Part shown: positions 13,255 to 35,674 of the stretch, piece after piece
How the letters are laid out: every line of letters begins with the position of its first letter
Position numbering within the stretch: position 1 is the stretch's first letter
Source of the DNA: Nibricoccus aquaticus
GTDB taxonomy: Bacteria; Verrucomicrobiota; Verrucomicrobiia; Opitutales; Opitutaceae
Direction of reading: 5' to 3'
DNA: 64,000 nucleotides
Assembly (NCBI RefSeq): GCF_002310495.1
Contig: NZ_CP023344.1
Location: 1,054,001 to 1,118,000, forward strand
Program-made: the position numbers and the translations under genes
The notes under the pieces: model-generated
What the model saw: only the letters and a program-made list of their open reading frames with translations
What the model was told of the DNA's origin: nothing
The model's database searches: none

Positions 13255-14883
13255 TCACCACACCAGCAACCCACCCGCAAATGTCAGCCCAGCGCCCACG
13301 CTGCAAAAGATGATCTTGTCGCCCGCGTTGAAGATCTCCTCTTCCGCAGCCCAGCCGAGCGCCATCGAGACACTCGCGGCCGACGTGTTGCCGTACTTCC
13401 CGATCGTCACGACGAACTTCTCGTAAGGAATCCCCACGCGTTTCCCAACCGCGCGCAGGATGCGCTCGTTCGCCTGATGCGGCACAATCCACGCGACCTC
13501 GTCCGGTTTCAAATTGTGACGCTTCAGCGTTGCCTCGATCTGATCCGCAAAGGCGATCACCGCGTGCTTGAACACCGCGCCGCCATTCATCTGGAGGAAA
13601 AAGTCCTCCTGGTCCTTGCCCTGCGGATCGGGAAACGGCCGGATCGCTCCACCACCCGGACGCTGGATCGCCTCGAACTGATCCGCATCGCCCGAGAGCG
13701 CCATACGCGCCAGCCGATGTCCGCCAGCCGCATCCGTGAGCACCGCCGCCCCCGCGCCATCACCAAAGAGAAACGCCGTGGCGTGATCCTTCGGATTCGT
13801 GATGCGCGACAACAACTCCGCCGTGACCACGATCAACTTTTTCGCCGTGCCCGAACGGATGAACGCGCGCCCCACTTCGAGCGCGTACAACCAGCCCGAA
13901 CACGCCGCATTCAGATCGAACGCCAGCGCGCGCGGAATGCCCAGTTGCTTGGCCAGCGCGCTCGCCATCGCCGGTACCGGCTGGTCCGGGATCAACGTCG
14001 CCATGATCACGCCATCAATCTCCTTCACATCGATCTTCGCCTGCTCGAGCGCGTGCTGCACCGCGATTACCGCGAGGCTCGTCGCCGTCTCGCCATTCAC
14101 CGCGTAACGCCGCTCGCGGATGCCAGTGAGCTTGATCACCTCTTCCTCGGTCATATCCGGGAAGGACTTCAAAATTTCGCTGTTTGAACGGATGCCCGAC
14201 GGGATCGCGTATCCGACACCCGCGATACACACCGTCTCGGCCGCGCGCAGATCGAAACCCGCCGCACCGCCAGCAGACGCCGTCGCTCCAGCGCCGGCAT
14301 CCGCAACCGCTCCGCCCGCTTTCCTCTTCTCCAGATAAGCCGCCACATCATCGCCCGACACCCGCCCGCCAGGGCCGGTCGCTCCGATGTCCGTGATCGC
14401 CGCCGGATCGAGCCCGGCCTCTTGCGCGATCTTGCTCGCGCGCGGCGTCCACTGGATACCCGTGCGCGCCGGAGCGGCAGCCACCGAAGTCACCGGCTGT
14501 GTCGTCACCCGCGCCACCGGCGCAGCCACGACCACCGTTTTCGCCGCAGCCGCATGGCCATTTGCGGCGACTGCAGGAGCCTTCGTCACTGCAGCTTCCT
14601 CGCCCGCCTTCACTTCCAAATGTTTGAGCGACACATCGCTCGTCTCGATCCGCAGAAACGGCGCACCCGTCGAAATGATGTCCCCAGCCCGGCCGACCAC
14701 CGCCCGGATTGTTCCGGCGCACGGCGACTCAAACTCGAAGACCGACTTGTCGCTCTCCAGCTCCGCCAGCTTCTGCCCCTTGGTCACGGCCGCGCCGGGC
14801 TCGATCACGATGTCGATCACCGTGAGCTCGTTGACGGTCGCACCCATTGAGGGCACGGGCACTTCAATCAGAAATGTTTCCAT
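13255..14883 (-). CDS. Lipoyl domain - peripheral subunit-binding domain - beta-ketoacyl-ACP synthase III fusion
   Basis: A 542-residue three-part protein. (1) Residues 1-82 form a lipoyl domain like that of 2-oxoacid dehydrogenase E2 chains, with the lipoylation site Lys46 in ESDKSVFEFESP. (2) An Ala/Pro linker leads to a peripheral subunit-binding domain (about 145-186: TPRASKIAQEAGLDP, then GATGPGGRVSGDDV), which docks E1 or E3 in known complexes. (3) Residues about 215-542 are a complete FabH-type condensing enzyme with an intact triad: Cys328 (NAACSG), His469 (VPHQAN) and Asn499 (YGNTSAAS). The E2 acyltransferase domain is absent and replaced by KAS III. The ATG at 14883 begins METFLIEVPVPSMG; upstream codons are not domain-like. 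The inferred role is condensing lipoyl-bound acyl groups with malonyl-ACP. Confidence 0.9.
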   Translation of the reverse strand: METFLIEVPVPSMGATVNELTVIDIVIEPGAAVTKGQKLAELESDKSVFEFESPCAGTIRAVVGRAGDIISTGAPFLRIETSDVSLKHLEVKAGEEAAVTKAPAVAANGHAAAAKTVVVAAPVARVTTQPVTSVAAAPARTGIQWTPRASKIAQEAGLDPAAITDIGATGPGGRVSGDDVAAYLEKRKAGGAVADAGAGATASAGGAAGFDLRAAETVCIAGVGYAIPSGIRSNSEILKSFPDMTEEEVIKLTGIRERRYAVNGETATSLAVIAVQHALEQAKIDVKEIDGVIMATLIPDQPVPAMASALAKQLGIPRALAFDLNAACSGWLYALEVGRAFIRSGTAKKLIVVTAELLSRITNPKDHATAFLFGDGAGAAVLTDAAGGHRLARMALSGDADQFEAIQRPGGGAIRPFPDPQGKDQEDFFLQMNGGAVFKHAVIAFADQIEATLKRHNLKPDEVAWIVPHQANERILRAVGKRVGIPYEKFVVTIGKYGNTSAASVSMALGWAAEEEIFNAGDKIIFCSVGAGLTFAGGLLVW

Positions 14884-15051
14884 CGGAACCACGGATAAAC
14901 AGGACCATTCCACGCGCCGCAAGCTCTCGGTCAGTTCATCTCAACCCCTACCAGCAGCCCGCAAATACACCGCCTGCGCATTTCTTGCCGCACACCTCCT
15001 CCGCGATGCCCCTCGCCTCAGCTCCCGCCCCGCCATCGCGTAACCGGTCTC

Positions 15052-19442: not shown

Positions 19443-20558
19443 ATGAATCAGCCCAACCCCGTGGCTGCGGTGACTCCGCACCCCAAGATCGGTTATTCCA
19501 TTTTTGACATTGAGATTCATGCCCGCCCTGCAAGTCCCCGGAATATCGCGGCCTATCTGCCGTCTTCCTACGTGGATCGTTACCTCGATGGTTTTCTCGG
19601 CGATAGTACCCCCAACCTGGATCAACGTGGCGGCAACGATCGTGAGGATGCGGATATTTCAGATAACTGTGTTGCCGCCAGTAATCCGGAGCTCATCGCG
19701 CGCCAGCTGCTGGATCCCTACGGGATTGAATGGGCGATTTGCACCGGTCCGATCTACAACCTGAGCACCATCGGTGACACGGACTACGCGGTAGCTTTGG
19801 CCAGCGCGTTTAACAACTGGCTGAACAACGATTTTGTCCCGCGTGATACTCGATACTACGGCGTGATCTATGTGGCCATGCAGGATCCGAAGGCTGCGGT
19901 GAAGGAGATCGAAAAGTGGGCAGGCCATCCGCGCGCGAGCCAGGTTTTCATCGGCAGCGCCGGGATTGTACCGCTCGGCCATCGCTCGAACCATATTATT
20001 TACGAAGCCGCGGCGGCGAATGGTCTGCCTGTCGCCACACACAGCACGATGGAAGGCCGCGGTATCACCGGCACTCCCACCGGAAACGGCTACTGCTCGC
20101 GCTACATCGAATACCACACCGGGCTGGCGGCGAGTGCGTTGACGAACGTGACGAGCCTTGTGTGCGAAGGTGTTTTCGCGAAAATTCCCGACTTCCGTTT
20201 CGTGCTGCTGGAATTCGGCATTTCTTGGGCGCAGCCCTTGATGTGGGCGCTCGATCGGGAGTGGAAAAGCCTGCGGTCTGAAATGCCTTTGTTGAAGGAA
20301 CTGCCAAGCGAATACCTGAAACGCCAGTTGTTCTACACTACGCAGCCGATCGAGGAGCCCGACAAGACGCGCGATCTCGTGCAGACGTATCATGCGGTCA
20401 ACGGGAGCAATCAGATCATGTTTTCCAGCGATTATCCGCATTGGGATTTTGACAACCCCGTCGTGATCCTGCCCGGAAGGGACAATGCAGAGCTGAAGCG
20501 CCGCATCCTTCGGGAAAATGCTCTCGCGCTTTATGGCCGCCGACTTGGATTGAAATGA
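19443..20558 (+). CDS. Amidohydrolase-superfamily protein A (Amidohydro_2 / ACMSD-like)
   Basis: A 371-residue TIM-barrel metal-dependent hydrolase/decarboxylase-type protein. The N-terminal metal motif is FDIEIHARP, where D-x-H-x-H would be usual. Central ATHSTMEG supplies a His, VCEGVFAKIPDFRFVLLEFG is the typical Amidohydro_2 strand-helix, and the C-terminal catalytic-type Asp is in MFSSDYPHWDFDNP. LLKELPSEYLKRQLFYTTQP is shared with the paralogue at 20946. It is first in the operon and overlaps the Rieske gene (ATGA). This family includes ACMSD, 5-carboxyvanillate decarboxylase and related ring-product enzymes; the substrate here is unknown. Confidence 0.9.
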   Translation: MNQPNPVAAVTPHPKIGYSIFDIEIHARPASPRNIAAYLPSSYVDRYLDGFLGDSTPNLDQRGGNDREDADISDNCVAASNPELIARQLLDPYGIEWAICTGPIYNLSTIGDTDYAVALASAFNNWLNNDFVPRDTRYYGVIYVAMQDPKAAVKEIEKWAGHPRASQVFIGSAGIVPLGHRSNHIIYEAAAANGLPVATHSTMEGRGITGTPTGNGYCSRYIEYHTGLAASALTNVTSLVCEGVFAKIPDFRFVLLEFGISWAQPLMWALDREWKSLRSEMPLLKELPSEYLKRQLFYTTQPIEEPDKTRDLVQTYHAVNGSNQIMFSSDYPHWDFDNPVVILPGRDNAELKRRILRENALALYGRRLGLK

Positions 20559-20941
20559 GCAACGTCACCTCTCCTTCCCCAACCAAGGCTCGCAAACTGG
20601 TGCCAGCAGGTCCGGCAGATCTGTCGATCGGTGGGCGCCGCATCGTAAAGATCGATACGTATTCCATCGGTGTTTTTCGAATCGAGAGCGGTTACTACGG
20701 CATCGTGAACTACTGCCCGCACGAGGGCGCTGAGCTTTGCAAAGGCCGGCTCACGGGCACAAACCTGCCGACGGACAAGGTCTCCAACTACGAATGGGGC
20801 TGCCAGGGACGGATCCTGCGCTGCCCCTGGCACAAGTGGGAATTCGATCTCATCACCGGCCAGCACCTCGCCGATCCATCGTTCCGGGCACGCACTTATC
20901 GCGTCATCGAAAGCGAAGGACAGCTCACCATTGAACTTTGA
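20555..20941 (+). CDS. Rieske [2Fe-2S] ferredoxin-like protein
   Basis: A 128-residue soluble Rieske protein. The cluster-binding motifs are complete: CPHEGAELC (Cys-x-His, about residues 54-56) and CPWHKWEFD (Cys-x-x-His, about 95-98). The spacing between the two motifs is longer than in typical ferredoxins because of an insert (KGRLTGTNLPTDKVSNYEWG). No oxygenase catalytic domain is attached, and none is encoded nearby. It overlaps amidohydrolase A by 4 bases and is followed by amidohydrolase B after 4 bases, so the three products are probably made together. The electron partner is not evident. Confidence 0.93.
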   Translation: MSNVTSPSPTKARKLVPAGPADLSIGGRRIVKIDTYSIGVFRIESGYYGIVNYCPHEGAELCKGRLTGTNLPTDKVSNYEWGCQGRILRCPWHKWEFDLITGQHLADPSFRARTYRVIESEGQLTIEL

Positions 20942-20945
20942 CCCC

Positions 20946-22037
20946 ATGGACACCCCCTCTCTGAAATTTTTTGATGCCGACGTGCACGTTCGTTGGGATG
21001 ATGATCGTGCGATCGCCGATCGCCTGCCCGAGTCTTGGAAAGAGCGCTGGCTGATCGGCGCGGGTCACACGCAGGCGGGCCTGCGGATCAACCCGAAGTT
21101 CTACAATCCGCACGAACCGTTTGGCCAGGGCACTCCCCGGACAGTCGGGCGGCAAGGCTTGGTGTCGGCGGAAGCGCTGGCGAAAGACTGGCTCACTCCG
21201 CAGGGAATCGATGCCGCCCTGGTGAGCGTTTACGATGCGCCGAATCTCTGTACGTTTGGCGACGTCGATTATCCGATGGAGATGGCGCGCGCGGTAAATG
21301 ACTGGCTGGCCGAGGAATGGCTGGAAAAGTCGCCGGCTGTTTACGGGACCATCGTGGTGGCGACGCAAAATCCAGAGGAGGCCGCCAGAGAGATTCGTCG
21401 CGCGGCCCGTCACAACCGGATGCTGCAGGTGATGCTGCCGACCGGGAGCATGTTTCCCTATGGAAATCGGCGTTTCTATCCGATCTATGAAGCCGCGCAG
21501 GAATGCGGTTTGGCAATTGCGATTCACTCCGGCACTGAGGGCATGGGCACAAGTCCGGCGCCCACGCCGTGCGGCTGGCCGGGCACTTTGTCTGAGTTGC
21601 GAGTGACACGCTCGACCACGTTTCTCGGTCACCTGACCAGCATGATCACCGAAGGTGTGTTTGTTCGGTTTCCCGAACTGCGCGTCGTAGGTCTCGAGGT
21701 AGGCGTGGCGTGGTTGTCCACCTACCTCTGGCGGTTCGACAAAAATTACAAAGGTCTGCGTTCAGAATGTCCGTGGTTGAAGGAGTTGCCGAGTGAATAC
21801 ACACGACGCTTCTTCCGCTTCGGTACTCAGAGTGCAGAGCCGGGTAATCCGGCTTCCGAATTCTGGCGTTTGCTCGGATCCAATCGCCTGGATGAAACCC
21901 TGATGTTCTCGAGCAATTACCCACGATGGGATCATGAAACTCCGGTGTTCTCCCATGGCATGGCCTCCGCCGCGCCCGAAAAAATCGAGGCGTTGAAGGT
22001 CGGCGTCGCCCGTTCCACCTACCCAAGATTGCTTTGA
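20946..22037 (+). CDS. Amidohydrolase-superfamily protein B (paralogue, degraded catalytic motif)
   Basis: A 363-residue paralogue of protein A with the same order of blocks: FFDADVHVRW at the N-terminus, IAIHSGTEG in the middle, VFVRFPELRVVGLEVG, and LKELPSEYTRRFFRF. The C-terminal block SSDYPHWD of protein A is SSNYPRWD here, so the usual catalytic/metal Asp and the following His are both replaced. It may be a non-catalytic partner subunit, or it may use another chemistry. The start is the ATG at 20946, 4 bases after the Rieske stop; an in-frame TTG at 20931 lies inside the Rieske gene. Confidence 0.88.
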   Translation: MDTPSLKFFDADVHVRWDDDRAIADRLPESWKERWLIGAGHTQAGLRINPKFYNPHEPFGQGTPRTVGRQGLVSAEALAKDWLTPQGIDAALVSVYDAPNLCTFGDVDYPMEMARAVNDWLAEEWLEKSPAVYGTIVVATQNPEEAAREIRRAARHNRMLQVMLPTGSMFPYGNRRFYPIYEAAQECGLAIAIHSGTEGMGTSPAPTPCGWPGTLSELRVTRSTTFLGHLTSMITEGVFVRFPELRVVGLEVGVAWLSTYLWRFDKNYKGLRSECPWLKELPSEYTRRFFRFGTQSAEPGNPASEFWRLLGSNRLDETLMFSSNYPRWDHETPVFSHGMASAAPEKIEALKVGVARSTYPRLL

Positions 22038-22068: not shown

Positions 22069-22974
22069 GTGAAACGCGGAACGAAAAAAGCGAAGCCTCC
22101 CGTTGTTGACGCGACAGGCGAGAGTTTCGAAGCGCCGCGTTCCTATGACTGGAACGCGGTGCGTTGCCGGCTCCTCTGGTGCTATCGCAATCAGCCGAAC
22201 ACGATCAAAGGTTCGTTTGAGACCATGAATTTCATCCTCTGGCATATGCTGGAGGGCGAAGTCGATGTGACCGCATCCGGGCCACCTGTGAAGGCGGGCA
22301 AGGGTTCGTGGATGGTGCTCGTGCCTGGATTGGGGCGGCGCACGCAAAGTTTTTCTCCGAAATCACGCATCATCTCGATTCACTTCGCGGTCGAGGTGGG
22401 CTCGGCCAAATGGGAGGGGCCGTCGGTTGCGGTCTTGAAGGGAAATCCCGAGTTGGAAGCCGCGGCCGAAGTGCTGGAACAATTCACCTATAAAAAGCAC
22501 GCCGACGGCATTCCGCCGGGAGGTCCGATCCTGTCGATTTCCAGTTTCGAAGAGCAAATCGAGGTCCGGGAAAAAATCTGGGCTTTCTGGCGTATTCTCG
22601 CACCGCAGATTGCGACAGCAGGCATCCGGCTGCGCGCTCCTGATCTGACGCATCCGCTGATGGCCAAGAGCATGACGTTGATCGAAAGCTGGCCGATGGC
22701 CGCCAACTGGAATCGTCGCAAGGTATCACAAGCCGTGGGCGTGAGTGCGAGTCAGCTGGACCGCATCTGGCGGGACACCTGCGGACAGACACCGTTTCAA
22801 TTCTGGAGCCAGCGCCGGTTGCTGTATGCGTGCAGCCAACTGCAAAGCATGGAACGCGGCGTGAAGGAAATCGCCCACGAGCTCGGCTTCGTCCACCTCT
22901 CGCAATTTTCCAATTGGTTTCGTCGGCATCAACACACGTCGCCGCGGACCTATCGCTATACGTTCTCTGGATGA
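22069..22974 (+). CDS. AraC-family transcriptional regulator
   Basis: A 301-residue regulator. The N-terminal part (about 30-180) is a cupin-like sensing domain (MNFILWHMLEGEVDVTASG, then GSWMVLVPGLGRR). The C-terminal AraC double helix-turn-helix covers about 200-298 (NRRKVSQAVGVSASQLDRIW, then GVKEIAHELGFVHLSQFSNWFRRH and SPRTYRYTF). The start is GTG at 22069, 31 bases after amidohydrolase B, with no obvious Shine-Dalgarno. Lying at the end of the amidohydrolase operon and followed by a strong terminator, it probably regulates the island's catabolic genes, an inference from position. Confidence 0.92.
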   Translation: MKRGTKKAKPPVVDATGESFEAPRSYDWNAVRCRLLWCYRNQPNTIKGSFETMNFILWHMLEGEVDVTASGPPVKAGKGSWMVLVPGLGRRTQSFSPKSRIISIHFAVEVGSAKWEGPSVAVLKGNPELEAAAEVLEQFTYKKHADGIPPGGPILSISSFEEQIEVREKIWAFWRILAPQIATAGIRLRAPDLTHPLMAKSMTLIESWPMAANWNRRKVSQAVGVSASQLDRIWRDTCGQTPFQFWSQRRLLYACSQLQSMERGVKEIAHELGFVHLSQFSNWFRRHQHTSPRTYRYTFSG

Positions 22975-23044: not shown

Positions 23045-23494
23045 TCAGTTTTTAGGATTCAGCGTGATTTCACGCATGAGTTTGATGCCGTGAACCTCAC
23101 GCATATCGACGCGATCGGTGGCGATTTTGAAGCGCTGGTCGGCGTCACCTTCGGCTTCGAGGACGATCTTGCCCCAGCGTTCACGGACGTTGTCCTGATC
23201 GGCCATGTTGCGGGTCTCGACCATCAGGAGGACGTTGAAGTCACTGGGGTTTCCCGGATGACCCAGCAGGATTTTGTAGTCGAGGATGAGGCCTTCTTTT
23301 TTCGCCTGACGCATGACGGCATCGAAGGTGCGGGTGATGCTTTTCAAGTAGGCTTCGACCATGCCGTGCTTGGCGCGGACAATGGTAATCTCCCAGACCG
23401 TGCCTTCCGTGTAAGGAGCTTCGTCTTTGGCGAAGGTTTTTCCGGAAAAAGCGAGGAGCGCCGTGAGAAGAATGAGGAGGAGTTTGTTTTTCAT
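23045..23494 (-). CDS. Exported small protein, dimeric alpha/beta-barrel-like
   Basis: A 149-residue protein with a signal peptide (MKNKLLLILLTALLAFSGKTFA, cleavage after about residue 22). The mature part starts VWEITIVRAKHGMVEAYLKS and continues with FDAVMRQAKKEGLILDYKI and FNVLLMVETRNMADQD. This beta-alpha-beta pattern recalls the ferredoxin-like antibiotic-monooxygenase/EthD fold. No catalytic residues can be assigned. It is last in the minus-strand operon after the MFS transporter (30-base gap). It might bind or process a small molecule in the periplasm. Confidence 0.75.
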   Translation of the reverse strand: MKNKLLLILLTALLAFSGKTFAKDEAPYTEGTVWEITIVRAKHGMVEAYLKSITRTFDAVMRQAKKEGLILDYKILLGHPGNPSDFNVLLMVETRNMADQDNVRERWGKIVLEAEGDADQRFKIATDRVDMREVHGIKLMREITLNPKN

Positions 23495-23524: not shown

Positions 23525-24805
23525 TCAGTGTGCGCGAACGTTATCCGCAGGAGCTTCCTGACGGATGAATTCGCGCGGGAAGAAACGGTAAGCGGCAAAG
23601 AGCAGCGCGCTTCCGCCGAGAAGGTAAGCCCAGGCAAGACCGGACAGACCGGCGCCGAGATCGCCGCCTTGCTTCATGGCGCCGAGAATCAACGGAGCCA
23701 GAGAACCGATCATGAAGGAAAACGCCACCATGAGACCAGCGGCCGAGGCATGAAAACGACGGGGCACGACATCGAAAAGCGATGCGTAGATGTTCGAGTC
23801 GAACAGGCCGCGGCAAAAACCGAAACCACCGAGCGCGATGTAAACAACGGTGAGATTGTCGGATGCGCCCATGAAATAGAGCGAAGGGATGCCGAGAAGC
23901 AGCGCGGTACCGGCGAGATTCAGACGGAAGCTCGGATATTTCTGAGCGAATTTGTCGGAGAACTTGCCGCCAAGCATAACACCGACGAACGCGGCCACCA
24001 AATTGTAGAATACGCTGAAGAACCCGGCGTTCGCTAGCGTGAGCCCAAAGGATTCATGGAGATAAGTCGGCATCCAGGCGAGGTAGCCAATGCTCACGAA
24101 GGTGCTAAGGCCGAGTACGAGCGAAAAGATGATCGCCGTTTTAATCTTTATAAGCGATTGGAGTACTTCTTTAACGCGGGGCCGCTCACCGCTGATGACC
24201 GGGCTGACTGAGTGCGATCGCTTCATGCGCAGGTGAATAACAACGGCGAGAATGATGCCGAATCCACCGAAGACAAAGAAGGAGCTTTTCCACCCGAAGA
24301 GCTGCCCGAGCCACCCAGCCATGAAGCCGCCGCCAATGGTTCCGACGTAAAGAGCGGATTGGTGAACCGCGAGCGCGAGACTGCGGGATTTGGTGTGATG
24401 CTCTCCGATGAAAGCCACAGCTGCGGGAACATACATGGCTTCACCAACGCCCGTAGCCACGCTGCGGATGGCTATGAAAGAAATCAGTCCGACCGAGAGG
24501 CCACTGAGCAACGTGGAGAGGCTCCAGGCGGCGAGGCTCAAGACGATGATAATACTGCGCGGATAACGGTCGCCGATGTAGCCGGCCGCGGGAAGCACGA
24601 ACGCCATCGTCACGACCATCGTTGAGCCGATCACCCCCGCTTGGAAATCATTCAGACCGAGATCAGCTTTGATGAGCGGAAGCACCACATTGAAAATCTG
24701 GCGGTCGGCCTGATTCATGACGTAGGCGAGGAAAAGCCAAATGATGATTTCCCATTGGTAAGGAATCAGCGGCTTTTTCGCCGTGTTTGCAGAAAGAGAT
24801 GCCAT
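23525..24805 (-). CDS. Major facilitator superfamily transporter
   Basis: A 426-residue inner-membrane transporter with about twelve hydrophobic segments. Motif-A-like sequence lies after TM2 (AAGYIGDRYPRSIIIVLSLAAWS), and the first segment contains MNQADRQIFNVVLPLIKADL, typical of the anion:cation symporter/hexuronate or aromatic-acid branch. The frame extends to 24877, but the ATG at 24805 (MASLSANTAKKPLIPYQWE) gives a normal cytoplasmic N-terminus. It lies between the TonB receptor upstream and the small exported protein downstream on the same strand. It may move the receptor's ligand or its breakdown product across the inner membrane. Confidence 0.92.
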   Translation of the reverse strand: MASLSANTAKKPLIPYQWEIIIWLFLAYVMNQADRQIFNVVLPLIKADLGLNDFQAGVIGSTMVVTMAFVLPAAGYIGDRYPRSIIIVLSLAAWSLSTLLSGLSVGLISFIAIRSVATGVGEAMYVPAAVAFIGEHHTKSRSLALAVHQSALYVGTIGGGFMAGWLGQLFGWKSSFFVFGGFGIILAVVIHLRMKRSHSVSPVISGERPRVKEVLQSLIKIKTAIIFSLVLGLSTFVSIGYLAWMPTYLHESFGLTLANAGFFSVFYNLVAAFVGVMLGGKFSDKFAQKYPSFRLNLAGTALLLGIPSLYFMGASDNLTVVYIALGGFGFCRGLFDSNIYASLFDVVPRRFHASAAGLMVAFSFMIGSLAPLILGAMKQGGDLGAGLSGLAWAYLLGGSALLFAAYRFFPREFIRQEAPADNVRAH

Positions 24806-24913
24806 GTGAGTCGGATCTTGAGCGTCGAAGCAGGATGAGAGTGGGCCTGAATTATAAAACCACCGGGCAGAGGACATCCCGCCCGGCGGTTGAATCTTTA
24901 GCGCGAGCGGTTC

Positions 24914-27898
24914 TTAGAAGACCGCCTTCACGGCCAGGGTATAAGTGGTGCCGACGCGGAGGTGATCGTAGAGCGTCGGAGCACTTGGAGCCACTTTCTG
25001 CATCTGGATGTAAGGAGCGTCGGTCACATTGCGCGCGCTCAAGTTGAGGGACAGCATGCGTGTGAGTTTGAAGCCGGCTCCGCCGTCGATCTGCGTACGC
25101 GCACGACGATAAGTCGCGCCTGTGGTGGTGGTCGGCGTGTCGTCGGTCCAGTTGCCGTTCGCGTAGATATTGAAGCGGCGATAGGTGTAGGAAATGCCGC
25201 TGTTGACGGAATGCGGCACGAGGCCGGTCTTCAGTTCGGTGGCATAGGCGCGGGTGTAGTTGGCGCGAACATTCAACCGGCGGAAGGCGTTGCCGAGGAA
25301 GCCGAGGTTCTGATTGTACGAGAGTTCCATGCTGCGGACTTTGACCTGGCCCGGGCTGTTGGCTGAGGTGATGAAACGGTAGCCGGTGTAATCCTCGCCG
25401 GCGTAACCAAATTCCGCGGCGGTGAGTTCATCGCTATTGATGAGATCTTCGACGTGGTTCTCGTAGAGGGCCACGCTGAATTCGCCGACGTTCTTCATGT
25501 AATAAGCGAGACGGGTCGCAAAGTTGGTGGCGGTTTCCGGTCTCAGCTTAACGTTCGGCGCAGTGACTGTCTGGTTGTTGTCATTGACGACCCAGACGCC
25601 CGCCACGTCGTTGTATGCCGGACGGCGGATTGTGGAGCTGAAGCCGGCGTGCCATTCAAGGTCCTTGATGATCTCGTAGCGAATCGAACCGCTGGGGAAG
25701 AAGTTTTCGTAGTTGCCTGTCCGGTACACGCGAGGACGGGCCAGGAACTGATAAGCTACGCCCGGAATGGTGGTGGCGACGCCGCTGGCGTTGACCGCAT
25801 AACCGGCGGCAGTGACCTCAGCCGAGGTCCGGGCATCGGGCTCGAGCACCTTCGTTTCTGTGTCCTCGTAACGCACCCCAGCGCGGATGGTGAACCCTTT
25901 CACCTGGGCAGTGCCCATGAAATAACCGGCGTTGATGCTCTCGGTGAAGTTACGGTTACGGACGACGTGGGTGTTGTAGTAGTCGGTCGCGTTGGAGGAG
26001 TTGACGAATTGCTCGGGATTGGTGCGGAAGCGTTCGCCGATATCCGCGAGATCGGGCATGAAGATACGACCGCCGCTGATGGAGGTGATGTTCACGTTGG
26101 TTTTGCCGAGGTCCCAGACGAATTCAGAGGGAAATTCGCCGTAGTGGGTGGAATTGCCGTTGGGTCCGACATAATTGTAACGATCCAAAGAGCGCTTATC
26201 GGAGAAGGTCCGGTTTTCTTCCCGGAACTTGAGGCCGGTCTTCCAGACGATCGGGATGCCCCAGTTGGTGGAAAGACTCGCATTGGTTTGTGCAGTCATG
26301 AACTCGCCGCGAGAGCGGCGGCTGTCTTTGGCGATGATGGACGGTTTGCTGAAGGCAGAGCCGGAGGCGATGTCGCGGCCGGCAATCTGCACAAACTGCC
26401 AGTCCGGCGAGAGCGCATCGTTCGGCCGCACGGCGCGGTAGTTGACGTTCGCCGCCACCGGGCTGTTGAGAGTCTGCATCGTGCCATGGCGTCCGAAGTT
26501 GTCATACCAGCTGGTGGAATCCGAGTAGGACGCAGCGCCATCCCACACAAAGTTGCCATTCTTGTATTCGAATTTTGGTGTCACAGTGATGGTTTCGCCC
26601 AGCTTGGAGATCGCCACCGGGTTCACGGTGATGCTCGCGGCAGTTGAGTTGGTGGTGAAACCGAAAACCGGATCAGCGCCGATGACCGAGCGGCCACCGG
26701 TGGTCGCGGTCATAGAGCGCTGCATGTTCCAAAGTTCGGAGTAGTTGTAGATTGTGGTGAGCGAGAGCGTAAGGCGGTCCGTTGCGCGGAAGTCGGTCGT
26801 GAACGTGGTGGAGAAACGCCGGTTGTGACGCGGGAGTTGCTGGAAAACAATCGATGTGGGCACCTGCTCACGACGGTCGGTCGCCGTGGGGCTGCGATTG
26901 TAGTTAATTGTGACACGGCTGGCGTCCGAGTAGATGTTCGATTCGGAGACGTTGAAGACGAAGCCGAGGCGATTATTGAGAAACACATCGGAGTATTCGA
27001 AAATACCGCCGGGCCCAAATTTGTAGCTGCCGTCGTGATCATCGGGGCCAATGCCTTTGGAAAGCGTCATGGCGCTCGAGTGCATGGCCGAGTTCAATTG
27101 CAGGCTGATACGGCGGTCCTTGCGGTCGAATGCACGTTTGGCGCGGAGATTGATCGTACCGGCGGGGGCGTTGGCATCGACGTCGGCGCTGATCGTGCGG
27201 GAAATTTCGAGGGAATCCATGCTGCTGAGGGACACCATCTCGAAACTGGAAGCGCGAGTGTTGGTACCGGTGCCGGCGGTGTCGTTGGCATCGGCGGCGG
27301 CGAGCGACATGCCATCAACCGTGACCTGCGTGTATTCGGAGCCGAGGCCGCCGAGGCTGACGTTGCGGACTTCACCGTTGACGGTGTCGAGTTGCACGCC
27401 GGGAACATTGCGGAGGAACTCGCCGATGTTGCCTTCCGCGTTTTCACCGAAGACGTCGGAGGCGATGTGGTTGGTGATATTCATGGAGCTGCGTTGCTCC
27501 ATGATCGCCTTGGCGTTTCCTTCGCGTTCGCCGGAGACGACGAACGCCTGCATGACGAGTGTACCGTCTTCGCTCGGGAGGTTGAAATCGTGCGTGACGG
27601 TCTGGCCGGGCTGGACGACAAGCGTGGCCGTCTGCGTTGGATAGCCAATATAATCGGCTTCGACCGTAGCATTTCCGACTGGGACATTTCCGAACCGGTA
27701 GGAGCCGCCGTCACCAGAAGTGGTGGTTTCGTTGGAAGGCAGCAGGCGGATCTGGGCGCTGCGGGCGTATTCGCCTGTTGCAGGATTATAGACCCGGCCG
27801 GTGATGGCGCCTGTTGCGGGTTTTTCCTGGCCGATAAGGGTGAGTGCCGGGCTTAAAAAAAGTAGGCCTGCGTAGAGGAGCCGTTTAATCGAGATCAT
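24914..27898 (-). CDS. TonB-dependent receptor with carboxypeptidase-like N-terminal domain
   Basis: A 994-residue outer-membrane receptor. A signal peptide (about 1-23) is followed by a carboxypeptidase-regulatory-like domain (about 30-110, ITGRVYNPATGEYARSAQI is its start). FVVSGEREGNAKAI comes next, then the plug (NIGEFLRNVPGVQLDT, VTVDGMSLAAAD). The long barrel ends VGTTYTLAVKAVF with a terminal Phe. The EREG signature links it to the receptor at base 1. It heads the 23045-27898 minus-strand group with the MFS transporter, so together they form an uptake route for the island's substrate. The ligand is unknown. Confidence 0.93.
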   Translation of the reverse strand: MISIKRLLYAGLLFLSPALTLIGQEKPATGAITGRVYNPATGEYARSAQIRLLPSNETTTSGDGGSYRFGNVPVGNATVEADYIGYPTQTATLVVQPGQTVTHDFNLPSEDGTLVMQAFVVSGEREGNAKAIMEQRSSMNITNHIASDVFGENAEGNIGEFLRNVPGVQLDTVNGEVRNVSLGGLGSEYTQVTVDGMSLAAADANDTAGTGTNTRASSFEMVSLSSMDSLEISRTISADVDANAPAGTINLRAKRAFDRKDRRISLQLNSAMHSSAMTLSKGIGPDDHDGSYKFGPGGIFEYSDVFLNNRLGFVFNVSESNIYSDASRVTINYNRSPTATDRREQVPTSIVFQQLPRHNRRFSTTFTTDFRATDRLTLSLTTIYNYSELWNMQRSMTATTGGRSVIGADPVFGFTTNSTAASITVNPVAISKLGETITVTPKFEYKNGNFVWDGAASYSDSTSWYDNFGRHGTMQTLNSPVAANVNYRAVRPNDALSPDWQFVQIAGRDIASGSAFSKPSIIAKDSRRSRGEFMTAQTNASLSTNWGIPIVWKTGLKFREENRTFSDKRSLDRYNYVGPNGNSTHYGEFPSEFVWDLGKTNVNITSISGGRIFMPDLADIGERFRTNPEQFVNSSNATDYYNTHVVRNRNFTESINAGYFMGTAQVKGFTIRAGVRYEDTETKVLEPDARTSAEVTAAGYAVNASGVATTIPGVAYQFLARPRVYRTGNYENFFPSGSIRYEIIKDLEWHAGFSSTIRRPAYNDVAGVWVVNDNNQTVTAPNVKLRPETATNFATRLAYYMKNVGEFSVALYENHVEDLINSDELTAAEFGYAGEDYTGYRFITSANSPGQVKVRSMELSYNQNLGFLGNAFRRLNVRANYTRAYATELKTGLVPHSVNSGISYTYRRFNIYANGNWTDDTPTTTTGATYRRARTQIDGGAGFKLTRMLSLNLSARNVTDAPYIQMQKVAPSAPTLYDHLRVGTTYTLAVKAVF

Positions 27899-27941: not shown

Positions 27942-30218
27942 TCATGGCGCAGCGGGAGCCACGGGGATCTTGGTGCCATTAAGCGCGGCGAGTTCGTGGT
28001 AGAGCTCGGGATCCTGCGTGATGAGATCCTTCATTCCGCGCAGCTGGCTGACCGAGACCCAGGGGAGCCAGAATTGGTGGCGGCCGATGCCGCGAGGGAG
28101 ACTGAAACAGTAATGTTCCTGCTGCCAGCCGGGGCCGCGTAGTCCGAGCGGTTTGCCCGGGAGTTCGATCATGGCCTTGGTATTATGCAGAAGGATGGTG
28201 GCGACTTCGAGGTAGTGCCTGTCGCCAGTCAGGCGATACAGTTTGGCGAAACTCGCGACGTCGAAGGCCATGTAGCCATCGATGAGCGAGTGGCCGGTGG
28301 CGATGAGTTGCATGCCGGTGGTGGGAACGCCGCGTTTCCATTGAAGTTTCGCAGCCGGACTGTCGTCTGGCATAGGGACGTTCCAGATATACATCCAGGT
28401 CTCGGCCATGGCGGCAGCGGCTTTGGCGCGCCCAAGCCAACGGTCATCCTTGGTGATGTCGTGGAGCGCGAGATAGCCCTCGAGCGAGATGGTGGCGGCC
28501 TCTTTGTCGATGACGTCGGGATTATCAATGGTGCCGCCGACAAAGCGGCCGACGTTTTGACCCTGATTCCATGCGAAGTCGGCGGTGCGTATGGCGACAT
28601 CGAGATAATTTTTTTCGCCGGTGATGCGATGAAGCTGGGCGTAAAAAGGAACGGCCATGAAGGAGCCGGTCGGCGAATCGGAGACGACTTTCGCGGTGCG
28701 CGGCATCCAGGAACGAATGAAGCCACCGCCGGGCTTTTCCTGCGTGAGCAGCCAGTCGGCGAACTGACGAACCCACGCGATCCAGTCGGCATGCGTACGG
28801 CCGGCGCGTTGCTCGTCTTCGTAGGCGCGCATCAGCGACTTCATGTCGTCGGTGAAGCAGCGAAGGAAAAGTTCGTGATCCGTTTTATAGCCCCCCTGGG
28901 AGGTCGCGTACTCGCCGCTCTTGTGGAAAAAGCCTTCGCCGGCAGGAGGTGCCATTGGGATGCGTAGAAACGAATCGATGGACTTTTCCGCTTTGCGACG
29001 GAGCTCGGTGCCGCGTTCGGTGTGATCGAGCGTCGAGGCTGCGAGCATCATTTCAGCGGAGCCTAGTGCGTAGCCGATGAAGCCCATGATGGACTTCGTG
29101 ATCTCGCGTTCCTTCTGCCCGGGAATCGCCGGGCTGATGATTTGCGTGCCAGCGCGGTCGTCGAATTCGAGCGTGTTCTCCGCGATCATGTCCACGACGT
29201 GACGCCAGACGGCACCGAGGTTTTGCGGATTGGCTTTCGGCTTGAGCGTCGTCCATGCCCAGCGCCACGAATCGGAAACAAAGGCTGTGAAATTATCCGC
29301 CTGGTTGAAGCGGAAGGACACTTCGTAGCTATGGGCGAATCCGTCCTTGATAGGATGGTAACGCCTGCGCCACGCGGCGTGCGCGGTGGCATGTTCGCTC
29401 GATTTGCGTCCATAGTTGATCTGCCCCTCGGAGCCGGGAAAGAGAAAGCCGAGCTGGAGTGTCTTCTCGTTTTCCTGCGCACCAATCGCGCCAAAGAGAA
29501 AGCGGGCATCGGCGCGGGACGCGTGGGAGAAATCGTTGCCTTCGGAATGAGTGGTCGCGCCGTTGGGCGCGGAATTCAGGACGGAAAGCGTGGAGCCGTC
29601 GGCGAAACGTGCGCTCATGAGCGGCGCGGGCATGCGATCTTCGCGAATCCAGACAGCGTAGTTTCTCGGCTGGTAATAATTGCCCGCGCCGAAGGAGTTG
29701 TTCCTCAGATGGGCAAAATTTCCGTAGATCATACCAGGCGAAAACCATTCCACTTCCGGCCATTTTTTTGGCTCGGTGATTTCAAGTGTGACGGAGGAAC
29801 GGAAGCCGCCGTCGAGATTTCCGTGAACTTTAACGGAGCGGTTCAGACGAAGTGCAGAACCTTCCACACTCCATTCGTCTTCAAACGTGAAGCGGAGATC
29901 GTGGAGCCCTTTGATGACGCCGCGTCCGATCCACTTTCCATTTTTCGATTCGAAGCTGCGGTAGGCCGCGCGCAGCGGAGTATAGCTGTCAGCATTCTTG
30001 TCCCAGACTTCGACTTGAAGTGGGAACGACTGGCTGGCGCTCGCCATCCCCTGCCCCTCGATGCGGATGCCTGTGCTGTCGTCCGGATTCTTCTGCGACT
30101 GGAGAACGGGCTGTTGCCGAGAGGCGGTGGTCGTGGCGGCCGCGCTGGCGATAAAAGTAAAACCTGCCAGCGCAACGGCGGCGAAAGATCGAACAAAAGA
30201 ATTTCTTAAATCACGCAT
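27942..30218 (-). CDS. Exported protein of unknown function, possibly (alpha/alpha)6-barrel
   Basis: A 758-residue protein. The ATG at 30218 gives a signal peptide (MRDLRNSFVRSFAAVALAGF onward, Ala-rich, cleavage near residue 27). The N-terminal half looks beta-rich (SFPLQVEVWDKNADSYTPL, RLNRSVKVHGNLDGGFRSS). The C-terminal half (about 350-740) has repeated helical blocks with aromatic/Gly motifs (TKSIMGFIGYALGSAEMML, SQGGYKTDHELFLRCF, FADWLLTQEKPGGGFIRS, DVASFAKLYRLTGDRHYLE). These resemble the helix pairs of six-hairpin glycosidases and lyases. No catalytic residue can be named. It is 43 bases upstream of the TonB receptor on the same strand, which suggests it acts on the same glycan or glycoside. 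Confidence 0.75.
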   Translation of the reverse strand: MRDLRNSFVRSFAAVALAGFTFIASAAATTTASRQQPVLQSQKNPDDSTGIRIEGQGMASASQSFPLQVEVWDKNADSYTPLRAAYRSFESKNGKWIGRGVIKGLHDLRFTFEDEWSVEGSALRLNRSVKVHGNLDGGFRSSVTLEITEPKKWPEVEWFSPGMIYGNFAHLRNNSFGAGNYYQPRNYAVWIREDRMPAPLMSARFADGSTLSVLNSAPNGATTHSEGNDFSHASRADARFLFGAIGAQENEKTLQLGFLFPGSEGQINYGRKSSEHATAHAAWRRRYHPIKDGFAHSYEVSFRFNQADNFTAFVSDSWRWAWTTLKPKANPQNLGAVWRHVVDMIAENTLEFDDRAGTQIISPAIPGQKEREITKSIMGFIGYALGSAEMMLAASTLDHTERGTELRRKAEKSIDSFLRIPMAPPAGEGFFHKSGEYATSQGGYKTDHELFLRCFTDDMKSLMRAYEDEQRAGRTHADWIAWVRQFADWLLTQEKPGGGFIRSWMPRTAKVVSDSPTGSFMAVPFYAQLHRITGEKNYLDVAIRTADFAWNQGQNVGRFVGGTIDNPDVIDKEAATISLEGYLALHDITKDDRWLGRAKAAAAMAETWMYIWNVPMPDDSPAAKLQWKRGVPTTGMQLIATGHSLIDGYMAFDVASFAKLYRLTGDRHYLEVATILLHNTKAMIELPGKPLGLRGPGWQQEHYCFSLPRGIGRHQFWLPWVSVSQLRGMKDLITQDPELYHELAALNGTKIPVAPAAP

Positions 30219-30533
30219 GATGCGGAGAGCTGGGGGCGGCACGAGGTCGGGGTTAACGAACACGAGCGGATAAACACACAGCGCTTTTGGCACATCTAAT
30301 TGCTTAATGATTCTAACCGAAATGTTGCTTCTCATGTGCTTTTCCAAAACGCGCAGCAGTGTGCAGCATGTGCGATGATGCTTTCATTACGGCCGGCGAA
30401 GGAGAGTTTCCGGCAGCAAGAAGTGAGTGTTCGCGCGCGACGCGTATTCAAAAAAATTTCCTGCGCGTAAATGGCTGCGTCAATGGAGTCAGAGTCTCGA
30501 CACGCGAACTCTGGTTTGCAGCGTACGCCGGAA
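30219..30533. other. Divergent promoter region within the island
   Basis: This spacer lies between the minus-strand exported-protein/TonB/MFS operon and galactokinase on the plus strand. Frames extend into it from both sides but lose protein character here. It must contain two promoters. I see no palindromic operator that I would defend. Confidence 0.45.
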
Positions 30534-34154: not shown

Positions 34155-35567
34155 CTACACAGCTTTTTCCTCAAGGAGATTCTTAAGTATTTTCATCAAT
34201 TCAGCCGTATTGCTGCTAACTGCGGTCAGAGGCTTCAGTTCGGAGTCTCCTGAGAAAAACGAAGTCGGCTCAATCTTGCTGGAAACATAGAACTTTCGGG
34301 TTACTCCAATCGTGGAATGCCGCAGACCAGAACTAGCCGCCAAGATCCCCTTACGGTCGGCGAGGTGAGATCCAAACTCTTTTCTCAACGTATGTATCCG
34401 AGAAGTGGAGCGAGTGATTCCCTTACCCTTTAACCATAGGCAAAGCGCTTTGAAATCTTTCGTGCACCGATACTGCCTGTACACTGCGTCAGGACGCGGA
34501 GCGACGTCGGAAATGAGCACGAATTCGCCTTTGGAAATCTCGGCATGCTTACGGAGCACTTCCGCGAACTGTGATTCGAGCCGGATTTTCCCGACCGACG
34601 AATCGCTCTTCAGGCGTCCATATTTCGTCGGAGCGATGGTAACAGTCCCGGTGGCAAGTTCCACATTCGACCACAGCAGTTTGTCGATTTCGTTCCGACG
34701 GAGGCCTGCACCTATCGCCAGGACAAAGATCACCAGCTGGTTTCCGGAAAGTTCGGCGAAAGCTGCTTCGATCAACTTTTTGGCGTCTACCTCCGACGTG
34801 TAGAAATAATCTGATTCGCGTTCCGGAAGAAACTCCACTGCGTCGAAAGGAAGTGGAGATGGCAGCACGAGATCCGAACATTTTGTTAGAACTCGCCTCA
34901 TGACACGCTTGGCAAAAAGCGCACGAGCATTGCGAAGAACACCGTTGGCGGTGTGCTCAACCCTAATGCGCTCGGGCGTATTGGCTGGGAACCGTGCCAC
35001 ATACTCGTCGCGCCAGATAGCGATCAGTTTTGGCGTGATGGTGTTTAACCGCGTCCCATCCACCGCCGCTCGCCACCTGGATATTTCAGCTTTCCCAGGA
35101 AACTTGTCGGTGCCGTTGAACTTAATTTTTCGGATTCCGCTCACGATCCGTCGAAATCTGGCCGCGTACGTGTATAGCGTGCACGGATCCAAGTGACCAT
35201 GCTGGCCGACCAGTTCGATGTAACGGCCGACCGTCAACTCTGAGCGCTCAGCTGCAAAGGCTGGCTTGTATTTCGATCGGGTCTCTTCCCATGTGTGCAG
35301 CCGAAGAAAACAATCGATCTCTCGCGCGAGCTTCGCCGCTGAATCCAGATCTGATCCGAGCTCGAACCACTCACGGCAGCCGCGACATTGGATGCGCAGG
35401 AGGTAGTAAGGCGCGTTGGGGCGACCGAAGTATTTCCGGGTGTTTCGTTGGATGCGTTGCTTCAATTTGAGCATCGCACCGTGGGTGGTTGTTTTTGGGC
35501 TTTGGCCCACGTTTTGCCCACTGGCGGGAACTGATCCGAAGACTTCGCTTTCAGAGAGGTTTTTCAT
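34155..35567 (-). CDS. Tyrosine recombinase / site-specific integrase
   Basis: A 470-residue phage-type integrase. The N-terminal half is an arm-binding/core-binding region. The catalytic domain (about 270-450) has Arg in AIGAGLRRNEIDKLLW, a beta-hairpin Lys in TKYGRLKSDSSVG, the H-x-x-R block RIHTLRKEFGSHLA, the second His in SGLRHSTIGVTRKFY and the nucleophilic Tyr of RKFYVSS. It begins about 110 bases inside the right direct repeat and reads into the island, the usual arrangement for tRNA-targeting elements. The ATG at 35567 is preferred to an in-frame TTG at 35606. Codon use is less C-biased than in the flanking chromosome. Confidence 0.95.
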   Translation of the reverse strand: MKNLSESEVFGSVPASGQNVGQSPKTTTHGAMLKLKQRIQRNTRKYFGRPNAPYYLLRIQCRGCREWFELGSDLDSAAKLAREIDCFLRLHTWEETRSKYKPAFAAERSELTVGRYIELVGQHGHLDPCTLYTYAARFRRIVSGIRKIKFNGTDKFPGKAEISRWRAAVDGTRLNTITPKLIAIWRDEYVARFPANTPERIRVEHTANGVLRNARALFAKRVMRRVLTKCSDLVLPSPLPFDAVEFLPERESDYFYTSEVDAKKLIEAAFAELSGNQLVIFVLAIGAGLRRNEIDKLLWSNVELATGTVTIAPTKYGRLKSDSSVGKIRLESQFAEVLRKHAEISKGEFVLISDVAPRPDAVYRQYRCTKDFKALCLWLKGKGITRSTSRIHTLRKEFGSHLADRKGILAASSGLRHSTIGVTRKFYVSSKIEPTSFFSGDSELKPLTAVSSNTAELMKILKNLLEEKAV

Positions 35568-35674
35568 GAGGTCGAGAATTTCCCCTCGTAAGTGCCTGCC
35601 TACCAATACGGCAAAGCGGACATTTCTTCGCCAAAAGCGGACATCTCACAAGAGACCACCATCAAATAATTCCT

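Follow-up and report, generated by a model that had tools for sequence, protein, structure and literature searches.

A Rieske-flanked pair of PF04909 proteins in Nibricoccus aquaticus as a probable heteromeric dinuclear oxygenase with a putatively metal-poor partner subunit

We report a block of three genes, A-Rieske-B, in a 64,000-nucleotide stretch of the genome of Nibricoccus aquaticus (NZ_CP023344.1, positions 1,054,001 to 1,118,000; hereafter the window). The block encodes two paralogous PF04909 proteins (A and B) with a small Rieske protein between them, and the pair is most likely a heteromeric amidohydrolase-related dinuclear oxygenase (ARO), i.e., A is very probably, judging from its sequence, the oxygenase of the system, and B is a partner that has lost some metal ligands retained by AibH1. 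AibH1 is part of AibH1H2, a heterotetramer of two PF04909 proteins that works with AibG (Rieske protein) and AibF (FMN reductase) to hydroxylate 2-aminoisobutyrate, and each of these proteins is reported to be indispensable for product formation (PMC7782822). A first-pass annotation, made from the DNA letters alone, had stated that no oxygenase subunit was nearby and that no characterised three-component system of this kind was known; the former statement very probably overlooked A itself, and the latter is superseded by the published AibH1H2-AibG-AibF (PMC7782822, PMC10401708). In the papers searched, no earlier description of this triad came up.

Results

Gene layout and relationship to the AROs

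The Rieske open reading frame (ORF) begins within the last 4 bases of A, and the ATG of B lies 4 bases past the Rieske stop codon (Table 1); an alternative TTG start of B at 20931 is possible and would overlap the Rieske gene by 11 bases. Pfam recognised PF04909 (Amidohydro_2) in A (2.5e-33) and in B (9.5e-30) and PF00355 in the Rieske protein (3.7e-10). Neither A nor B was assigned to an NCBIfam family, and the Rieske protein matched NirD and dioxygenase ferredoxins only below threshold. With PF04909 in both proteins and 35% identity across 343 aligned positions, the three overlapping or abutting genes and the paralogous amidohydrolases described in the first-pass annotation are borne out, and its motifs are correct (FDIEIHAR and SSDYPHWD in A, FDADVHVR and SSNYPRWD in B). 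The Rieske protein carries C-P-H plus C-P-W-H, i.e., both C-x-H and C-x2-H are present. Two PF04909 subunits and a Rieske ferredoxin are encoded together here, as an AibH1H2-type heteromeric ARO requires.

The best PDB sequence matches of A are 8sm7 (6.1e-85), SfbO (8sm6, 8.4e-69), and AibH1 and AibH2 (about 1e-47), and that of B is likewise 8sm7 (7.7e-67); 8sm7, 8sm6, 8sm8, 6m1w chains A/B (AibH1, AibH2), and 8sm9 are common to both proteins. PtmU3 and the decarboxylases score far lower, and for A the bit scores are 289 with 8sm7, 52.7 with PtmU3, and 47 with 5-carboxyvanillate decarboxylase. B scores 145 bits against AibH1 versus 98.6 against AibH2. B was modelled with AlphaFold2 (mean pLDDT 79.8, 12 aligned sequences); Foldseek searches with the model returned the same list of AROs by fold as by sequence, and VIA-align superposed it on 8sm7 with Z 42.2 and rmsd 2.1 over 336 aligned residues. 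The matched structures belong to a young group: from the Rieske-PF04909 gene neighbourhood Liu and colleagues arrived at four AROs with redox-active dinuclear sites, among which SfbO carries out the oxidative dealkylation of MES and PIPES (PMC10811679), and Powell and colleagues reported 555 AibH2-like proteins with the six ligands complete, a small Rieske protein being adjacent in 90%.

Metal ligands in A and B

The metal pair of AibH2 is held by D25, H27, H211, E265, D337, and H340, and AibH1 binds one metal via D24, H26, H201, E255, and D328 (PMC7782822). Ligand states were read from alignments of A and B orthologues in four genomes, i.e., that of the window, G282, G397, and G181. The set in A is E24, H26, H200, E257, D330, and H333, with D335 in the second sphere; five of these match the AibH2 residues, and Glu, which like Asp is a carboxylate, replaces Asp at the sixth place, so that, read strictly, the window's A falls short of the six. 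Only G181 has Asp at position 24, and its A thus has all six; the other three genomes have Glu. Among single-subunit relatives (61 rows, 4 of them incomplete, with many near-copies from Chloroflexi, so that the counts are not independent events), the first ligand is Asp in all 58 rows that cover it, and the full set reads D,H,H,E,D,H in 57/57.

B is different. In the window and in G282, D12, H14, H194, and E251 are kept, and N324 and R327 stand in place of ligands; the G397 protein has V194, G251, G324, and R327 (H194 to V and E251 to G also lost), and the G181 protein has R12, Q14, N324, and R327 (D12 to R and H14 to Q also lost). The C-terminal Asp is therefore lost in all four (N, N, G, N) and the His is Arg in all four. 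Nor is the mononuclear Site 0 (D, H, H, E, D) intact in B, with N324 at the last Asp and further losses in two of the four orthologues. These residues point to B being most likely a metal-poor or metal-free pseudo-subunit.

The loss of catalytic-type residues from B, claimed in the first pass, is thus fixed across the orthologues; the H-to-R change held throughout, and the supposed D-to-N change is more exactly a loss of Asp, with G rather than N in G397. No B orthologue found retains the Asp. What did not stand was the reading of D-x-(E/D)-x-H as a decayed D-x-H-x-H, since D-x-H is a working ARO ligand pair (Asp25/His27 of AibH2). Strand 1 reads E-x-H in A and D-x-H in B, and neither protein has the H-x-H that mononuclear PF04909 hydrolases and decarboxylases carry there.

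Both proteins are maintained. By the Nei-Gojobori method the dN/dS ratio between the window and G282 is 0.027 for A, 0.124 for the Rieske protein, and 0.066 for B, values that are rough with dS near saturation; B is under purifying selection and is not a decaying gene.

A putative interface lysine

In AibH1H2, K282 of AibH1 bonds D342 of AibH2, on the loop bearing D337 and H340 (PMC12141560). We take this lysine to be the K of the AibH1 motif F-D-K, placed by its spacing to Y287, so that it would correspond to K266 of B; in the printed alignments the column has K in AibH1 and Y in AibH2. Lys occupies it in all four B proteins, in all four AibH1-like rows, and in 55 of the 61 single-subunit rows. 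The catalytic-type subunits have none (A has R,R,A,A and the AibH2-like rows have R,R,R,H; 0/4 each). A lysine given up by the putative catalytic subunit and kept in its partner fits an asymmetric heteromer. As a predictor of a second subunit, lysine loss failed in one single-subunit clade.

Occurrence in other genomes

Outside the window, the triad is contiguous and in the same order in G282 and G397, and in G181 it is split over two contig ends. The A-Rieske-B set whose co-occurrence elsewhere the first pass had proposed to check is therefore present in three further genomes, once between contigs, and with the same gene order in two more genomes and a third on two contig ends, the arrangement is more than chance. 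It is also rare. A search with A among 384 genomes of the class left G397 (A 59%) and G181 (A 43%) standing above the rest, B of the contiguous G397 triad being 53% identical; no further triad was found across 387 phylum-wide genomes apart from G000 and G181, nor in 62 genomes from the order of G397, that genome aside, and the 73 plasmid records matching B are every one below 60% identity. A contig scan with B yielded 29 loci, of which one, L039 (JANQAI010000005.1), matches the block from end to end, with identities of 88% for A, 82% for the Rieske protein, 84% for B, 76% for both AraC and the 149-aa protein, 82% for MFS, and 73% for the TonB receptor.

L039 lies in a metagenome-assembled genome (MAG) titled Magnetospirillum, and the 84% identity of its B might suggest a recent transfer into that genus, which we do not accept. 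Mis-binning of the contig is likelier because its composition is like that of the window and unlike the remaining contigs of that MAG: tetranucleotide frequencies of the L039/L070-L072 contig near the block correlate at r 0.90-0.93 with the window and at 0.71-0.77 with the other contigs. The sole ProA found in the MAG is 51% identical to the window ProA, and a search with RF00177 recovered 16S only from G397.

A profile scan of 47 ARO loci (18 regions from relatives matched by B plus the 29 named loci) found a Rieske gene adjoining the ARO gene in 45. The two without one by profile are L042, at a contig end, and L133, where tblastn gave a 31% Rieske match (L030). Two ARO subunit genes are present in four of the 47 (L039, L049, L064, and L065), and in L051 one ARO gene is interrupted by a frame change; outside the 47 loci, AibH1H2-like pairs occur in G113 and G016, both of the window's family. 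The pair in L065 (12414-15096, Conexibacter sp. CPCC 206217), also with Rieske, is a separate observation: its first subunit still matches PF04909 (1.4e-20) and has apparently lost essentially all ligands, making it a more extreme second pseudo-subunit.

Origin of B

In an IQ-TREE phylogeny of 51 rows, A (100/99), B (100/100), and the AibH1-like proteins (99/97) each form a clade, and the AibH1-like and AibH2-like rows group with six single-subunit proteins at 100/98, excluding A and B. A second tree, with long rows dropped and ligand columns masked, gave the AibH1-like/AibH2-like group excluding A and B at 100/99. Genome order is identical inside the A and B clades, with G181 outermost and then G397, the inner forks being only partly supported; A as sister of B was unsupported (73/50 and 40/63). 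Forcing B together with the AibH1-like rows cost 15.3 log units (p-AU 0.045), and 13.8 units (p-AU 0.082) after dropping and masking, so that the tree does not reach a clear separation of B from AibH1. An origin of the pseudo-subunit B independent of AibH1 is favoured by these sequences, not proven.

The carbohydrate-use neighbourhood

In the window and in one relative (L071) the triad sits within a carbohydrate-use block (Table 1).

Table 1. Coordinates of the triad, of selected codons, and of neighbouring genes in the window
Feature	Position	Strand	Remarks
Protein A, presumed catalytic ARO subunit, 371 aa	19443..20558	+	PF04909; best PDB match 8sm7
Rieske [2Fe-2S] protein, presumed ferredoxin, 128 aa	20555..20941	+	PF00355; CPH at residue 54, CPWH at residue 90
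Protein B, presumed non-catalytic pseudo-subunit, 363 aa from ATG	20946..22037	+	PF04909; PDB matches are AROs
Codon of E24 in A	19512..19514	+	Asp25 in AibH2
Codon of K266 in B	21741..21743	+	putative AibH1 lysine position
Codons N324-Y-P-R327 of B	21915..21926	+	replace D-x-x-H ligands
AraC-type regulator, 301 aa, directly 3' of B	22069..22974	+	PF12833; 76% copy after B in L039/L071
149-aa protein	23045..23494	-	76% in L071; beside MFS in L111 and L118
MFS permease	23525..24877	-	PF07690; 82% in L071
TonB-dependent receptor	24914..27898	-	PF00593, PF07715; 73% in L071
801-aa protein, beta-sandwich plus (alpha/alpha)6-type domain	27942..30347	-	weak GH127/GH76/GH88 Pfam matches
GH43 protein, 681 aa	31888..33933	+	PF04616; 60% over 633 aa in L071 13273-15162

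The GH43 gene of L071 lies beyond the 801-aa gene, as in the window, where a plus-strand GalK gene stands between them; a GalK match is absent from L070-L072. In both L074 and L089, an AraC gene stands divergent from A and is 25% identical to the one here. The model of the 801-aa protein (mean pLDDT 64) shows a beta-sandwich and a helical part, and its top Foldseek match is the polysaccharide lyase BACCELL_00875 (6.2e-9, with low TM scores of 0.33/0.37), a PL27 enzyme of beta-sandwich plus helical architecture that acts on gum arabic (PMC8377490); the predicted architecture suggests a carbohydrate-active protein. In G282 the gene (L071 9036-11392) is about 83% identical over its main part and broken into three frames, reflecting either a real mutation or an error of assembly.

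Relatives of the 801-aa protein occur in 9 of 200 genomes of the family, the own genome counted. Eleven loci from other genomes, read with 1.5 kb flanks, had a TonB receptor in three, AraC in two, MFS plus the 149-aa protein in two, and GH43 in three, and the triad was at none of them within these flanks, so that here a carbohydrate locus of the family has gained the triad. Downstream of B, G397 has a sulfatase gene.

Some further features were seen. The 149-aa protein, with no Pfam or NCBIfam match, has an N-terminal hydrophobic stretch, and elsewhere in the family its gene is a neighbour of those for MFS and the 801-aa protein. A phage-type integrase (34155-35606, minus strand; PF00589, 4.4e-9) is near the carbohydrate block and could bear on its mobility. 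At 13255-14922 (minus strand), a 555-aa ORF fuses lipoyl (PF00364) and E3-binding (PF02817) domains of the kind found in dehydrogenase E2 chains with a 3-oxoacyl-ACP synthase III (PF08545, PF08541), a starter of fatty-acid synthesis.

Discussion

We consider it probable that A-Rieske-B is the oxygenase-plus-ferredoxin part of an ARO system, in which A and B form a heteromer, A is catalytic, and B is unable to hold a metal pair. From this we infer the following working scheme. A and B would associate, and A would bind a Mn/Fe or Fe/Fe pair via its six ligands; an unlinked reductase would feed the Rieske protein, which in turn would reduce the site in A, where O2 would be activated and a small molecule hydroxylated or oxidatively dealkylated. 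B, of the same fold, would probably support the metal loop of A across the interface, with K266 of B directed towards D335 of A, and it may assist in Rieske docking. For the window and L071, the scheme places the enzyme in the service of the carbohydrate-use locus. The first-pass annotation had already cast B as an auxiliary in a heteromer receiving electrons from the Rieske protein, and given the fixed ligand loss this is still the best reading of the pair; its notions of motif decay, absent oxygenase, and absent precedent are the parts that fell away.

The likeness to AibH1H2-AibG-AibF of Rhodococcus wratislaviensis is close. Both have paralogous PF04909 proteins encoded in an operon with a small Rieske ferredoxin; one of the paired proteins has a dinuclear-type ligand set, and the other is, or in the case of B would be, without the second metal. 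The differences are also clear: AibH1 retains its mononuclear site (Asp24, His26, His201, Glu255, Asp328) whereas B does not have all five, the gene order is A-Rieske-B rather than H1-H2-G-F, no counterpart of the operon's AibF reductase gene stands beside the triad, the first ligand of the window's A is Glu and not Asp25, and the neighbouring genes are not the same. SfbO and the proteins of 8SM7/8SM8/8SM9 share the fold, largely the ligand set of A, and the Rieske neighbour (PMC10811679); SfbO and the other single-subunit AROs have one PF04909 subunit, unlike the two here, and 8sm7 and 8sm6 have Asp at the first ligand in place of the Glu of A. The nonheme diiron enzymes PtmU3 and LynB7 share fold family and ligand residues (PMC10127204) but belong to natural-product pathways, unlike the triad, and PtmU3 is much more distant from A.

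Several observations weigh against this reading. Six of the 61 single-subunit rows are without the lysine, so its loss is not specific to pairs; five of these come from the window's own family, and the regions of 4-17 kb fetched for them hold no second ARO gene, and the sixth, L066, likewise has one ARO gene. A itself departs from the six-ligand set in three of the four genomes, and with D24 changed to E it could also be altered. No reductase, AibF-like or otherwise, is among the genes annotated around the triad; genome-wide, PF00970 has one match in the own genome (an apparent desaturase-Rieske-reductase fusion, elsewhere), two in G282, and none in G181 or G397, and PF14759 is absent from all four triad genomes. 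In G181, A-Rieske closes one contig and B ends another, so that their join is putative.

B might instead be a drifted AibH1 in a true AibH1H2 orthologue, holding a mononuclear Site 0 metal via D12, H14, H194, and E251. The higher score of B with AibH1, the four of five Site 0 ligands remaining in the window and G282, and the marginal rejection of a joint clade, which is lifted after row dropping and masking, all speak for it, yet we hold it to be unlikely: B has N/N/G/N where Site 0 has Asp328, two more ligands are lost in two of the four, and the AibH1-like and AibH2-like rows belong to a supported group that excludes A and B. Decay also differs between the two, since the AibH1-like rows keep the D and H and have second-sphere Asp changed to H in all four, and B keeps the second-sphere Asp in all four. 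That A and B act independently, or that A is a homo-oligomeric ARO with B as passenger or regulator, would suit the prevalence of single-subunit AROs with a Rieske gene among the relatives and the reported independence of PtmU3 from any partner, but it is hard to square with B accompanying A in all four genomes where it is found, conserved and abutting the Rieske gene, and with A not having the lysine that most single-subunit rows retain; we regard it as rather improbable.

PF04909 includes many non-redox enzymes (PMC10811679), which could make A and B ordinary mononuclear hydrolases or decarboxylases beside an unrelated Rieske gene. We give this hardly any credence, with AROs by far the best matches, E-x-H or D-x-H replacing H-x-H, and Rieske genes adjoining nearly every scanned ARO gene; a plain hydrolase or decarboxylase identity is rejected on match scores and motif. 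The alpha subunit of a Rieske non-heme oxygenase joins a Rieske domain and a catalytic mononuclear-iron domain in one chain, and the 128-aa protein, a Rieske domain only with no catalytic domain, is ruled out as such. A bolder version of the heteromer, in which the pair originated separately from AibH1H2, Arg327 fills the site of a metal-less partner, and the enzyme of this carbohydrate locus is a non-P450 oxidative O-demethylase or hydroxylase of a modified sugar, is a speculation to which we attach little weight; one candidate substrate for such an O-demethylase would be 4-O-methyl-glucuronate from arabinogalactan, suggested solely by the polysaccharide-lyase-like and GH43 neighbours and the dealkylation chemistry of SfbO.

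With the AibH1H2 system and the Rieske-PF04909 neighbourhood already published, the layout of the triad is a known one of a young enzyme class, and what is new is a partner subunit that has lost metal ligands kept in AibH1. The role of the AibH1 metal is open in print, where disrupting the site gave insoluble protein (PMC10401708), and B resembles a natural AibH1-type subunit in which that site has been broken to different degrees in four genomes. The Glu-for-Asp ligand of A offers a naturally occurring test of the preference for Mn/Fe or Fe/Fe, and the link that the triad makes between an ARO and a polysaccharide-use locus limits where a substrate need be sought.

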